Source: Alphaproteobacteria bacterium
Lineage (GTDB): Bacteria; Pseudomonadota; Alphaproteobacteria; Rhizobiales; Rhizobiaceae
Assembly: GCA_016861165.1 (NCBI GenBank)
Contig: BOKV01000002.1
Coordinates: forward strand, 62,001-126,000
Length of the DNA: 64,000 nucleotides
Direction of reading: 5' to 3'
Below the pieces are notes generated by a model. That model was given only the letters and a program-made list of their open reading frames with translations. It did not search any database and was not told the DNA's origin. Both the position numbers and the translations under genes were made by a program. Shown piece after piece: positions 1,434 through 33,533 of this stretch. Each line of letters opens with the position of its first letter. Position 1 is the first letter of the stretch.

Positions 1434-2348
1434 ATGGATCGGGCAGCGCGCGACTTCACGGCACGACTTGAGCAGCGGGCCGGCGAGACCGTCGCCATGC
1501 TCGAGCGGCTCGTTTCCGGCCAGTTGCAGGCCGGCGAGACGGCACGGCCGCCCCGCCTCGTCGCCGCCATGCGCCATGGCGTCCTCAACGGCGGCAAGCG
1601 CCTGCGACCGTTCCTGCTGATCGAGACCGCCGCCCTGTTCGGGGCCGATGGCGAAGGCCCGATGCGTGCCGCCTGCGCGCTCGAATGCGTCCACTGCTAC
1701 TCGCTCATTCACGACGACCTGCCGGCCATGGACGACGACGACCTGCGCCGCGGCCAGCCAACGGTGCACCGTGCCTTCGACGAGGCGACCGCCATCCTCG
1801 CCGGCGACGCGCTGCTGACGCTCGCCTTCGACATTCTCGCCGACGCCGCCACCGATCGCGACCCCGCCGTGCGCTGCGAACTCGTGCTATCGCTCGCCCG
1901 CGCCGCCGGTCTCGGCGGCATGGCCGGCGGCCAGATGCTCGACCTCGCCGCCGAGGGCCGGAGGATGGACGAGGCCGAGATCGTCACCATGCAGGCGATG
2001 AAGACCGGCGCGCTGCTGCGCCATGCCTGCGAGGCCGGCGCCGTCCTCGGCGGCGCCGACGCCGGCGAGCGAGCCGCCTTCGCCCGGTTCGGCGTGGCCA
2101 TCGGCCGGGCCTTCCAGCTCGCCGACGACATCCTCGACGTGACCGCCACGCCGACGGCGCTTGGCAAGCGGACCGCCAAGGACAGGGACCGCGGCAAGGC
2201 GACGCTGGTCGCACTCCACGGGCTCGACCGCTCGCGCCGGATCGCCCGCGACCTGCTGGCCGAGGCGCTCGCCATCCTGGAGCCCTTTGGCGAGCGCGCT
2301 TTCTGGCTGGGTGAGGCGGCGCGCTTCGTCGTCGGCCGCGACCACTGA
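1434..2348 (+). CDS. ispA: Polyprenyl synthetase (farnesyl diphosphate synthase family)
   Basis: [11 protein letters not shown], first Asp-rich motif [15 protein letters not shown] and second motif QLADDILD; start chosen at internal ATG. Confidence 0.88.
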
Positions 2349-2526
2349 CGCCGGCTCATCGCCGGATCGGTGACGGTCCGCCGGCGCCGCAGGCAAGAAC
2401 GTCGCCGCGGTCCCGGTCGGCAGGGAAGGATTTTTTCCGGCGCTGATGAAATTCACCAAGCCGTTCCAGCGATTCGCCGGGCAGGCCGCCTATCTTGGAA
2501 TGGCGTTTCAACGAGGGTGGATTTCC

Positions 2527-26106: not shown

Positions 26107-26628
26107 TCAGCCGATGTCGGCGCGCTCGATCAGCGCGAGCAGTCCTTCGAGCAGTGCTGCCGGCGGCGGCGGGTCTCCGGGGATATGCAGATCGACCGGC
26201 ACGACGGCGCCGACGCCGCCGACCACCGCATAGCTGCCGGCAAAGTGGCCGCCATCGAGCGCCGCGTCGCCGACCGCCACCACCCATTTCGGGTTGGGGG
26301 TGGCGGCGAAGGTGCGCTCCAGCGCCTGGGCCATGTTCCTCGTCACCGGGCCGGTGACCAGCAGGACGTCGGCGTGGCGCGGCGAGGCGACGAAGCGGAT
26401 GCCGAAACGCTCGATGTCGTGGAAGGGATTGTTGAGCGCGTGGATCTCCAGTTCCGGGCCGTTGTCGGAGCCGGCATCGACCTCGCGCACCGACAGGCTG
26501 CGGCCGAGCCGGCGGCGCGCCGCCCGGCCGACGGCCTCGGCGAGTTCGGCCGCCGCCGCCGTGCCGGCGGCGGGCGGCGCCTCCGTCAGGACGGGCTTCA
26601 CCAGACTGTCGAGCAGGAGCTTCAGCAT
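26107..26628 (-). CDS. hyfI: HyfI/NuoB-like small subunit, cysteine-free
   Basis: VDAGSDNGPELEIHALNNPFHDIERFGIRFVASPRHADVLLVTGPVTRNM... and PVDLHIPGDPPPP; clear family scaffold with no Cys. Confidence 0.85.
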   Translation of the reverse strand: MLKLLLDSLVKPVLTEAPPAAGTAAAAELAEAVGRAARRRLGRSLSVREVDAGSDNGPELEIHALNNPFHDIERFGIRFVASPRHADVLLVTGPVTRNMAQALERTFAATPNPKWVVAVGDAALDGGHFAGSYAVVGGVGAVVPVDLHIPGDPPPPAALLEGLLALIERADIG

Positions 26629-26629
26629 C

Positions 26630-28144
26630 TTACAGATCGTGGCCCGAATAGGAGCAGTTGAACGACTTGTTGCAGAGCGGGAAGTCGGCGACGATGTTGC
26701 CCTCGATGGCCGCTTCGAGCAGCGGCCACTGGAACCATGAAGGGTCGCGCGGATGGCAGCGCTCGACCTGGCCGTCCGCCCCGATCCTGAGCCAGACGAG
26801 CACGTCGCCGCGAAAGCCCTCGACCATGGCCACACCCTCGGCCGCTCGCCCGGCGCCGCCGATCGCGACGCGCAGCGGGCCGTCGGGGAGCCGGTCGAGA
26901 ATCTGGTCGACCAGCGCCAGGCTCTGCTCGACCTCGCGGATGCGCACCCAGACGCGGGCGTTGACATCGCCCTCGCTCAGCACCGGCACCTCGAACGACA
27001 GCGCGTCATAGGGCGGATAGGGCAAGGCGCGGCGCGCATCGAAGGCGCGGCCGGAGGCGCGCCCGACATAGCCGCCGGCGGCGAACCGGCGGGCCAGTTC
27101 CGATTTCAGGATGCCGGTCGCCACCGTCCGGTCCTGTAGCGAGGTGGTGGCGTCGTAGAGCTCGACCAGCGCCGGGAAGCGCGCCTGCACTTCGGCGACG
27201 AGCGAGCGTATCGCGGCCGCGCCGTCCGCATCGAGGTCGCCGGCCACCCCGCCCGGCGCGATGCGGTCGCGCATCAGCCGGTGGCCGAAGGCCGCCCGCG
27301 CCGCCCGCAGCACCCGTTCGCGCAGGGTCGCGCAATGGGCATGCATCAGCGTGAAGGCGGCATCGTTGCAGATGGCGCCGATGTCGCCCAGATGGTTGGC
27401 GATGCGCTCAAGCTCGGCCATCAGCGCGCGCAGATGGGCCGCGCGCGGCGGCGCCTCGATACCGAGCGCCGTCTCGGCGGCGCGCGCGAAGGCATAGGCA
27501 TAGGCGACGGTGCTGTCGCCGCAGACGCGGCCGGCAAGCGCGGCGGCGTTGGCGAGCGTCGCCCCGCGCATCAGTGCCTCGATCCCCTTGTGGACATAGC
27601 CAAGCCGCGCCTCGAGCCGCACCACCGTCTCGCCGCTGGCGGTGAAGCGGAAGTGGCCGGGCTCGATGATGCCGGCATGGACGGGACCGACCGGGATCTG
27701 GTGCAGGCCCTCGCCCTCGACCGGCAGGAAGGCATAGGTCAGGCCGTCGGCCGGCGCCGGCTCGCAGGCGCCGAGCGGAAAGCGCACGCCCCAGCGTCCA
27801 TGGTCGAGCCAGGGGCGCGGGTCCGGCGCGTCGAGCGGCCTCAGCCCGAACAGGTCGTGCACGGCGCGCTCGGGGCGGATCGCCGGCGCATGCAGGCGGC
27901 CGACCGAGGGAAACGTGCCGTCCGGGCAGGCAAGCGTCAGCACCGCAGCCCCGCCGGCCTCCTCGGCCAGCACCGCCATGTGGACGGCGCTTCGGTCGCC
28001 CCAAAGTCCGGCCAACGCCAGCCGGCCGTCGGCCAGCGCCTCGCCCGCCGTCGCCCAGGCCCGGCGGCCGACCTCCAACCGCGGCCATCCGCGATGGCGC
28101 TCCACCGGTCTGCCCCTGATCATGCCTGCGAAGGTCTGTGCCAC
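26630..28144 (-). CDS. hyfG: HyfG/HycE/NuoCD-like large subunit, degenerate NiFe motifs
   Basis: GLHQIPVGPVHAGIIEPGHFRF, RLGYVHKGIE, GRVCGDSTVAYAYAFARAAE; C-terminus FPLCNKSFNCSYSGHDL. Confidence 0.87.
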   Translation of the reverse strand: MAQTFAGMIRGRPVERHRGWPRLEVGRRAWATAGEALADGRLALAGLWGDRSAVHMAVLAEEAGGAAVLTLACPDGTFPSVGRLHAPAIRPERAVHDLFGLRPLDAPDPRPWLDHGRWGVRFPLGACEPAPADGLTYAFLPVEGEGLHQIPVGPVHAGIIEPGHFRFTASGETVVRLEARLGYVHKGIEALMRGATLANAAALAGRVCGDSTVAYAYAFARAAETALGIEAPPRAAHLRALMAELERIANHLGDIGAICNDAAFTLMHAHCATLRERVLRAARAAFGHRLMRDRIAPGGVAGDLDADGAAAIRSLVAEVQARFPALVELYDATTSLQDRTVATGILKSELARRFAAGGYVGRASGRAFDARRALPYPPYDALSFEVPVLSEGDVNARVWVRIREVEQSLALVDQILDRLPDGPLRVAIGGAGRAAEGVAMVEGFRGDVLVWLRIGADGQVERCHPRDPSWFQWPLLEAAIEGNIVADFPLCNKSFNCSYSGHDL

Positions 28145-31234: not shown

Positions 31235-33237
31235 AGCGCCAGCACCGCAAGCAGGAAGACCAACGACAGGAACACCAGCACGAGGTAGCGCCGGATGGTC
31301 AGGAACTGGAGACGGTTGAGCCGCAGCGCGGCGAAGTCGACCGCCGCGGCAATCGGCGCGTAGAGCCGCTCCCAGATCGGGTCGTGCATCTCGACCACGA
31401 GGCGCGCCGGCGCGGTGTCGCCCGGCGGCGGCATCGCGACCGTCTCGCGGGCCTGGAAGACGACCGAGCCGAACACGCGGCGGATCGGCTGGGCGAAGCT
31501 GCCGGCGGTGTATTGCGTCGCCGGGCTCGGATCGGGAAAGCCGCAGTCCCAGGCCGGCCCGCGGCGCAGTTCGTGCGAGGCGAAGCGGTGGACGAGGATC
31601 GCCGCCAGCCAGGCGGAGGCGGCGATGAACAGGAACACCAGGAGCCCGTTATAGGAGCTGCGGCTCTCGGCGACCGGTACCACCGACAGCCATGGCACGT
31701 GGGCCTGGGCGGGCATGGCGCCACCGACGAGCGCCCGGGTGACCGGCGCCAGCGCGTCGATGACGAAGCCGGGCAGGATGCCGACGAGCAGGCAGAGCAC
31801 GGCGAGCGCCAGCATCGCGGCGAGCGAGAAGCGGTCGACCTCGCGCGCGTCACCGCTCGCAGGCGAGCGCGGGCGCCCGAGGAAGGTGACGCCGAAGGCG
31901 CGCACGAACGCGGCCGCCGCCAGCGCCGCCGCCAGCGCCAGGAGGCCGCCGACCGCCGGTACCAGGATCTTCAGGCCCCATTGCGGTAGCTGCGGGCTCT
32001 GCAGGATGGCCTGGAAGGCCAGCCATTCGGAGACGAAGCCGTTGAACGGCGGCAATGCCGAGATCGCCGCACTGCCGCCGAGGAAAGCAAGGCTGGTGAC
32101 CGGCATGCGATGGATGAGGCCGCCGAGCCGCTCCATGTCGCGCGTCGCGGTCGCCGTCAGCACGGCGCCGGCACCGAAGAACAGCAGGCTCTTGAACAGG
32201 GCGTGGTTGAGCACGTGGAACAGCGCCGCCGTCAGCGCCAGTGCGGCCGCCCACGCCATCGCGTTGGCGCTGAACGCGAGTGCCAGGCCGAGGCTGACGA
32301 AGATGACGCCGATGTTCTCGATGGTCGAATAGGCGAGCAGCCGCTTGAGATCGCGCTCCATCAGCGCATGCAGGATGCCGAGCACGGCCGTGGCCCCGCC
32401 CAGCGCCAGCAGCACGATGCCGGCCCACCAGGCCGGGTCGCCCATCAGGTCGAAGACGACGCGCAGGAAGCCGTAGACGGCGACCTTGGTCATGACGCCG
32501 CTCATCAGCGCCGAGACGTGGCTGGGCGCGGCCGGATGGGCGAGCGGCAGCCAGACATGCAGCGGCACCAGCCCGGCCTTGGAACCGGCGCCGAGCAGCA
32601 TCAGCGCGAACACGAGCACCGTGGTCGACGGGGCGTGCGCGGCCGAACGCATTGCCTCGAAAGCGTAGCCGCCGCCCGGTCCGGCCATCAGCCCGAAGGC
32701 GAGCAGCAGCGCCATCGTGCCGAAGCCTGCCATGACCAGATAGACGAGGGCGGCGCGCGCGTTGTCCGGGTCGCGGTGGTGGGTCAGCACCATCGCCCAG
32801 GAGGCGAGCGACATGAACTCCCACGACAGCAGGAAGGAGAAGGCGTCGGCGGCGACGACGACCAGGTTCATGCCGGCAAGGAAGGCGGCGAAGAACGGCA
32901 GCACCCGGTGCGGCGCGCTCTCATGGCGGCCGTAGCCGAGTCCGTAGAGACTCGCCGCCGCGCCGCCGAGATTGACCACGGTCAGGAAGAAGGCCGACAG
33001 CGAGTCGAGGCGGAAATGGGCGCCGAGCCATGGCAGCCCCAGCGGCAGCACCAGTTGACCGGTACGGCCGCCGATGAGCGCGGCAACCGCGACCGCGAGC
33101 AGCACGGCGGAGACGGCCGCGCAGGCGCCGTAGACGATCGCCGTCGCCGCCGGCAGGCGCGCGATGGCGACGGCGGCCACGGCGGTCACCAGCAACACCG
33201 CGATCAGCGCGAGCAGGATCGTCGCCGGCTCCATCAT
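31225..33237 (-). CDS. hyfB: HyfB/NuoL-like membrane subunit
   Basis: FSFLLSWEFMSLASWAMV, GSKAGLVPLHVWLPLAHPAAPSHVSALMSGVMTKVAVYGFLR, KRLLAYSTIENIGV. Confidence 0.9.
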   Translation of the reverse strand: MMEPATILLALIAVLLVTAVAAVAIARLPAATAIVYGACAAVSAVLLAVAVAALIGGRTGQLVLPLGLPWLGAHFRLDSLSAFFLTVVNLGGAAASLYGLGYGRHESAPHRVLPFFAAFLAGMNLVVVAADAFSFLLSWEFMSLASWAMVLTHHRDPDNARAALVYLVMAGFGTMALLLAFGLMAGPGGGYAFEAMRSAAHAPSTTVLVFALMLLGAGSKAGLVPLHVWLPLAHPAAPSHVSALMSGVMTKVAVYGFLRVVFDLMGDPAWWAGIVLLALGGATAVLGILHALMERDLKRLLAYSTIENIGVIFVSLGLALAFSANAMAWAAALALTAALFHVLNHALFKSLLFFGAGAVLTATATRDMERLGGLIHRMPVTSLAFLGGSAAISALPPFNGFVSEWLAFQAILQSPQLPQWGLKILVPAVGGLLALAAALAAAAFVRAFGVTFLGRPRSPASGDAREVDRFSLAAMLALAVLCLLVGILPGFVIDALAPVTRALVGGAMPAQAHVPWLSVVPVAESRSSYNGLLVFLFIAASAWLAAILVHRFASHELRRGPAWDCGFPDPSPATQYTAGSFAQPIRRVFGSVVFQARETVAMPPPGDTAPARLVVEMHDPIWERLYAPIAAAVDFAALRLNRLQFLTIRRYLVLVFLSLVFLLAVLALWS

Positions 33238-33533
33238 CCCCGCCCGTCCGATGCGGCGGACGGCTCCTCGGCGCGCAGCGGCTCCGGCCCGGCCTTCAGC
33301 CGCACGCCGCGGCCGCTCGCGCGGCTTACCGCGCCCTCGCCGATGATCTCGACGCCGGCCGCGTCCAGCGCGGCGATGAGCTTCATCAGCGAATCGACAT
33401 TGCCGCGAATGGTGCCGTCGCTCGCTTCCATGCGCTGGATGGTCGGCACCGACAGCCCCGACAGCTCGGCGAGCCGGCGCTGATCGATGCCGAGCAGGGC
33501 CCTGGCCGCGCGAAGCTGGTGGGCGGTGATCAC
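33234..33533 (-). CDS. XRE/Cro-type HTH regulator at the head of the hydrogenase-like operon
   Basis: RAARALLGIDQRRLAELSGLSVPTIQRMEASDG HTH; stop overlaps hyfB start region. Confidence 0.8.
   Translation of the reverse strand: MITAHQLRAARALLGIDQRRLAELSGLSVPTIQRMEASDGTIRGNVDSLMKLIAALDAAGVEIIGEGAVSRASGRGVRLKAGPEPLRAEEPSAASDGRG

Follow-up and report, generated by a model that had tools for sequence, protein, structure and literature searches.

Loss of the cluster-ligating cysteines from the small subunit of an Ehr-type complex in one lineage of Rhizobiaceae

A stretch of 64,000 nucleotides from a genome of the Rhizobiaceae (hereafter the window) encodes a complete operon for a predicted Ehr complex (energy-converting-hydrogenase-related, also Ech-hydrogenase-related) whose small subunit has lost all four cysteines that hold the iron-sulphur cluster in its relatives. 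The cluster was lost in one lineage and specifically, while the complex was retained, since the cysteine-less complexes form one clade, only the ligands changed systematically among invariant positions, purifying selection acts on the operon and, in three of the genomes, the canonical NuoB of complex I kept its cysteines. An intact and seemingly functional relative of complex I without the cysteines of its last cluster suggests a machine that works without passing electrons. An earlier note on this DNA had drawn attention to the small subunit; the Ehr-type large subunit, the widespread cysteine-bearing form and the confinement of the loss to one small clade under selection were not apparent to it.

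Results

The Small Subunit and Its Four Ligand Positions

The translation of the small-subunit gene, 173 residues long, contains no cysteine, as the earlier note had said with the right coordinates; its coding strand is the minus strand (Table 1). The protein belongs to the NuoB/HycG family (Pfam PF01058, E 1.8e-24) and could be aligned with Escherichia coli HycG over residues 36-164 (7z0s_G, E 4e-31) and with Pyrococcus furiosus MbhJ over residues 39-169 (6cfw_J, E 2e-29). An AlphaFold2 model based on 24 sequences, from which the fold alone was used given its modest confidence (mean pLDDT 64), had MbhJ as its best match among solved structures (6cfw_J, TM-score 0.71/0.84). These alignments and the model thus agree with the earlier proposal that the family scaffold is intact. 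The cluster cysteines of HycG, MbhJ and NuoB map onto D55, P58, A122 and D152, where relatives at 65-79% identity carry the motifs SCNGCEL, GDC and IPGC, so that the alteration of the ligand motifs was correctly recognized. The comparison that the earlier note made with the four-cysteine ligation of complex I N2 holds for the four sites but not for the type of ligation, because the HycG cluster is bound in the hydrogenase manner (C-x-x-C), unlike the tandem Cys-Cys of N2 (PMC9474812).

We considered whether the missing cysteines could be an artefact of assembly, sequencing or reading frame, as the assembly that contains the window is only 88% complete. Each of its four ligand codons is at least two bases away from TGC and TGT, which requires multi-base changes at four separate sites, and the same loss was found in independent assemblies of other species, covering three genera, with differing replacements at the same sites. 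Sequencing error is thus refuted as an explanation, and we leave it practically no probability.

Table 1. Positions of the operon genes and ligand codons in the window, and of the SulP genes in their own loci.
Feature	Positions	Strand	Evidence or context
XRE-type regulator, 99 aa, 4-base overlap with hyfB	33234..33533	-	HTH_3, E 1e-6
hyfB-like antiporter-type membrane subunit, 670 aa	31225..33237	-	NF005086 hydrogenase 4 subunit B, 883 bits (cut-off 667)
hyfC/NuoH-like membrane subunit, 318 aa	30278..31234	-	PF00146, E 5e-39
hyfE-like membrane subunit, 221 aa	29611..30276	-	NF008556, E 1e-24, below the NF008556 cut-off
hyfF-like antiporter-type membrane subunit, 484 aa	28160..29614	-	NF005043 hydrogenase 4 subunit F, 879 bits (cut-off 533)
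hyfG/ehrL-like fused NuoC/NuoD-type large subunit, 504 aa	26630..28144	-	PF00346 (E 8e-42), PF00329, PF00374; HycE alignment
hyfI/ehrS-like small subunit, 173 aa, no cysteine	26107..26628	-	PF01058, HycG 7z0s, MbhJ 6cfw_J
D55, codon GAC, ligand position 1 (Cys in relatives)	26464..26466	-	Alignment
P58, codon CCG, ligand position 2 (Cys in relatives)	26455..26457	-	Alignment
A122, codon GCG, ligand position 3 (Cys in relatives)	26263..26265	-	Alignment
D152, codon GAC, ligand position 4 (Cys in relatives)	26173..26175	-	Alignment
SulP gene beside Ehr operon, L031	530-2186		Methylocystis-type and Competibacter-type genomes (all five SulP genes)
SulP gene beside Ehr operon, L043	536-2351
SulP gene beside Ehr operon, L073	497-2369
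SulP gene beside Ehr operon, L077	385-2317
SulP gene beside Ehr operon, L074	9718-11521

The Operon and the Large Subunit

The small-subunit gene is the last of seven, arranged as XRE-hyfB-C-E-F-G-I on one strand with small gaps or overlaps, and the large-subunit gene ends one base upstream of it. The operon was recovered complete and in unchanged order in 69 loci from many Alphaproteobacteria and some Gammaproteobacteria, with the XRE regulator conserved as the first gene, next to hyfB, in most relatives; the six-gene core reaches further across the phylum. B-C-E-F-G-I is also complete and conserved in all five cysteine-less complexes. In nine Bradyrhizobium loci (L002, L004, L005, L007-L010, L023, and most clearly L044), we also noticed an open reading frame resembling an XRE regulator that closely follows the small-subunit gene but is encoded on the opposite strand.

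Alignment with HycE pairs RVCGDS of the large subunit with RVCGIC of HycE, and NCSYSG with PCYSC. Both CxxC pairs, which bind Ni and Fe in group 4 [NiFe] hydrogenases, are thus replaced and the [NiFe] site is gone. The invariant charged residues of the HyfB, HyfF and HyfC membrane subunits are kept, and E161 of the large subunit (P0003) occupies the place of HycE E193, the proton-transfer glutamate (PMC9474812). Residue 208, the cysteine of RVCGDS in the window (27521-27523, minus strand), is a serine in all 65 cysteine-bearing Ehr complexes; this S208C change restores, by sequence only, the first cysteine of the old N-terminal [NiFe] motif.

Group 4 hydrogenase-like subunits encoded in one operon together with a large subunit without [NiFe] cysteine pairs lead us to assign the predicted complex to Ehr, neither a hydrogenase nor complex I. 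Ehr complexes are related to group 4 hydrogenases and have no Ni/Fe ligands (PMC6349859); like the window complex, those of Geobacter sulfurreducens (GSU0739-45) and of Riflemargulisbacteria combine this with antiporter-type membrane subunits (PMC6349859, PMC7894505). The window differs from the usual Ehr state, which is not stated as a defining one, in that its small subunit lacks the ligands of the proximal [4Fe-4S] cluster, a loss shared by its clade, whereas about 200 related complexes keep these cysteines.

Rarity of the Cysteine Loss

We surveyed the four ligand positions in 215 aligned small-subunit rows drawn from about 80 named loci, from samples at the level of family, order, class and phylum, and from extra stretches; some cysteine-less species were counted twice among these rows. 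C-C-C-C was found in 205 of them. The exceptions were D-P-A-D in the window, S-S-E-N (two species) and S-S-D-N (one species) within a single genus, C-A-D-D in one species of another genus (L027), and L191. The latter was rejected as a further loss, the small subunit (1488-2376, minus strand) looking frame-disrupted after IPA and the third ligand, with the fourth ligand lost, probably through an indel or a local error. True loss thus concerns five species in three genera, all within the family of the window. At least three of these species (L012, L022 and L027) are known from metagenome assemblies only; the cysteine-less genome G223, by comparison, is listed as 100% complete and has 8 contigs. 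That many Ehr lineages have dispensed with the cluster was rejected, as the sampled rows contained one such clade. The four cysteines are strongly constrained in almost every relative, so that the cluster is important there. The cysteine-bearing form, which is widespread, is probably ancestral to the cysteine-less one. The absence of cluster ligands from the small subunit is a departure from the rest of the sampled Ehr family, of which we found no published report in the open-licence literature.

Phylogeny and Selection

The five cysteine-less complexes formed a single clade with a support of 1.0 in the tree built from the six concatenated subunits (2,364 columns, ligand columns removed), and all six single-subunit trees recovered it with supports from 0.25 to 0.996. 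The first cysteine is still present in L027, so that the loss was either stepwise or reached the first site later in the other branch.

As a reference for constraint we took the 569 positions that are unchanged in 65 cysteine-bearing complexes. At ten of them, one or more of the five cysteine-less complexes deviate; the four ligands are the only ones at which three or more do. The other small-subunit invariants were all kept (51/51), and the chance of drawing exactly the four ligands among the 55 small-subunit invariants is 2.9e-6. Clades of like size that keep the cysteines had 0 to 46 invariant positions changed, scattered over the subunits. Pairwise dN/dS within the three-species genus ranged from 0.02 to 0.13 for every subunit, the same range as in cysteine-bearing pairs; in the deeper pairs (window, L012 and L027) it was 0.17-0.38, pairwise dN/dS being a crude measure. 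The rate of the small subunit relative to the membrane subunits was 1.14 in cysteine-less pairs and 1.01 in the others (5-95% range 0.76-1.42), i.e. not accelerated. The operon is under purifying selection.

The variation of the ligand positions between lineages, as expected once a constraint is lifted, and the patchy distribution of the operon across relatives could also be read as signs of a relic, in which function was lost after the cluster and the operon is decaying. We consider this very improbable, because no member has a damaged copy of any of the six genes, the invariant positions outside the ligand sites have been preserved, dN/dS values are low and evolution of the small subunit shows no acceleration; moreover, an operon in decay would not survive undamaged over a divergence as large as that seen within the clade, whose small subunits are 76% identical. 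The low dN/dS and the unaccelerated small subunit thus argue for a complex that is kept.

Residues at the Former Cluster Site

In the sister genus, the ligand codons are AGC, AGC, GAG or GAC, and AAC. Across the clade, acidic or polar residues predominate among the replacements (DPAD, SSEN, SSDN, CADD) and most replacement codons are at least two changes away from TGC. Both observations would fit a site at which another metal, or an unusually ligated cluster, is bound by Asp, Glu, Asn or Ser. However, the cysteine-less lineages have no ligand set in common, and the residues at the ligand sites drift while the rest of the small subunit does not. In the window, proline and alanine occupy two of the four positions and cysteine is found nowhere in the protein, so that only two side chains could bind a metal. 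Such binding thus appears quite unlikely. Replacement cysteines were rejected as well, no new cysteine having become fixed in the clade. We rather infer from the sequences a buried site that has turned polar than a substitute metal site. The earlier conclusion that this subunit cannot hold N2 is well supported, and the loss of the cluster strongly so, by the disappearance of all four ligands, by the lack of a replacement cysteine in the small subunit and by the fact that, among the invariant positions, only the ligands changed systematically.

Complex I and Maturation Genes in the Same Genomes

Three cysteine-less genomes (G035, G223 and G419) also carry a second NuoB, of the canonical kind, in which the tandem Cys-Cys is present together with the two remaining ligands. 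Replacement of a lost complex I by Ehr in the host was considered and rejected, since the window's own genome (G000) has a nuo operon. Contig C3 breaks off within nuoG, so that nuoA-F are missing (L254, G000:C3:168000-180876), and it is because of this assembly gap that NuoB and NuoD were not found in this genome. In G157, which is cysteine-less and listed as 99% complete, the small subunit of Ehr was the sole family member seen, with no NuoB of the canonical kind. HypD, which is required for making [NiFe] sites, was present in G035 and was not found in G000 (at 88% completeness), G157, G223 or G419.

Gene Neighbourhood

Neither a ferredoxin-like nor a flavin subunit is encoded in the operon. 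Outside its seven genes, no neighbour was conserved across the compared loci, be it an electron-transfer gene or an NADH-oxidising module. A conserved partner gene was thus rejected in the 84 loci, the one recurrent neighbour being a SulP-family anion transporter gene that adjoins the Ehr operon on the same strand in five of them (upstream in four and downstream in one), none cysteine-less. As SulP proteins include bicarbonate transporters (PMC6458275), a role in inorganic carbon or pH handling becomes an idea that is worth testing, but no more.

Discussion

The explanation that we favour, as somewhat likelier to be right than wrong, is that the cysteine-less Ehr complex would be a redox-free ion-translocating machine that lost its only predicted cluster in one small Rhizobiaceae-like clade while the rest remained under selection. 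This reading combines the loss of the [NiFe] site throughout the Ehr family and of the cluster in this clade with the retention of E161 and of the charged residues of HyfB, HyfF and HyfC, and with a precedent for non-redox use of a NuoL-like subunit, that of DAB2 (PMC13144422). The earlier note had left electron transfer as either absent or rerouted; its absence fits better, as the operon has no other predicted redox centre.

Rerouted electrons would have to come from an unlinked partner and bypass the small subunit, with the large-subunit cysteines C259, C491 and C497 as acceptors, or else a different cofactor housed in the former [NiFe] site. These cysteines are conserved in 100, 97 and 96%, respectively, of 70 Ehr complexes, including all five cysteine-less ones, and C491 and C497 are next to the former C-terminal [NiFe] ligands. 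Nevertheless, the three form no cluster motif, their conservation is just as high in complexes with the small-subunit cluster, and no linked partner gene was found. Rerouting therefore seems unlikely to us, although a redox partner may come from elsewhere in the genome, which would count against a redox-free complex. The constraint on the cysteines in almost all other relatives also weighs against the favoured reading, as does the small number of species, five, that show the loss.

Comparison with known systems shows which parts the complex shares and which it lacks. E. coli FHL-1 and hydrogenase 4 resemble it in their HyfB, C, E, F, G and I-type subunits, in the fused NuoC/D and in the proton-transfer glutamate (HycE E193), but the window has neither [NiFe] nor cluster ligands, no HycB/HycF ferredoxin-like subunits and no formate dehydrogenase. 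The fold of the small subunit is shared with MbhJ of P. furiosus MBH (6cfw), which is a cofactor-bearing hydrogenase. Homologues of NuoB, NuoD and NuoH are common to the window complex and to the Q module of complex I (Nuo), from which the former differs by the lack of the tandem Cys-Cys, of any cluster ligand and of the NADH module. Finally, DAB2 / MpsAB (DabA-DabB) has a NuoL-like subunit that works without redox chemistry and may be a functional analogue only: homology is limited to this subunit, and DabA (carbonic anhydrase-like) is absent from the window operon.

In the redox-free machine that we favour, the complex would assemble without its cluster, as is plausible from an N2-less mutant of complex I, in which N2 normally passes electrons to quinone: this mutant showed native-like assembly and no quinone reductase activity (PMC8042128). 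No electron transfer would be needed for protons or other cations to move through HyfB, HyfF and HyfC; instead, the old [NiFe]/quinone pocket of the large subunit would drive or gate this movement, through binding or through a reaction that is not a redox one. Alternatively, the complex could act as a regulated antiporter or a leak. The former cluster site, with its mostly acidic or polar lining, may now be a structural or hydrated pocket. That selection maintains here a complex I superfamily member without any predicted redox cofactor ([NiFe] or N2-type cluster), and that this member is purely ion-translocating or chemically gated, remains tentative, a nearly even call that leans slightly against.

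For complex I, it has long been asked how ion movement far from N2 is driven by the electron transfer there. A natural relative in which the whole ion-moving machinery persists, invariant residues included, and in which the cluster ligands alone have gone, can be compared cleanly with its cysteine-bearing sisters, and the cysteine-less complex bears on what Ehr complexes do. If the redox-free reading is true, this clade would be a natural experiment in which a pump module does useful work without electron transfer.
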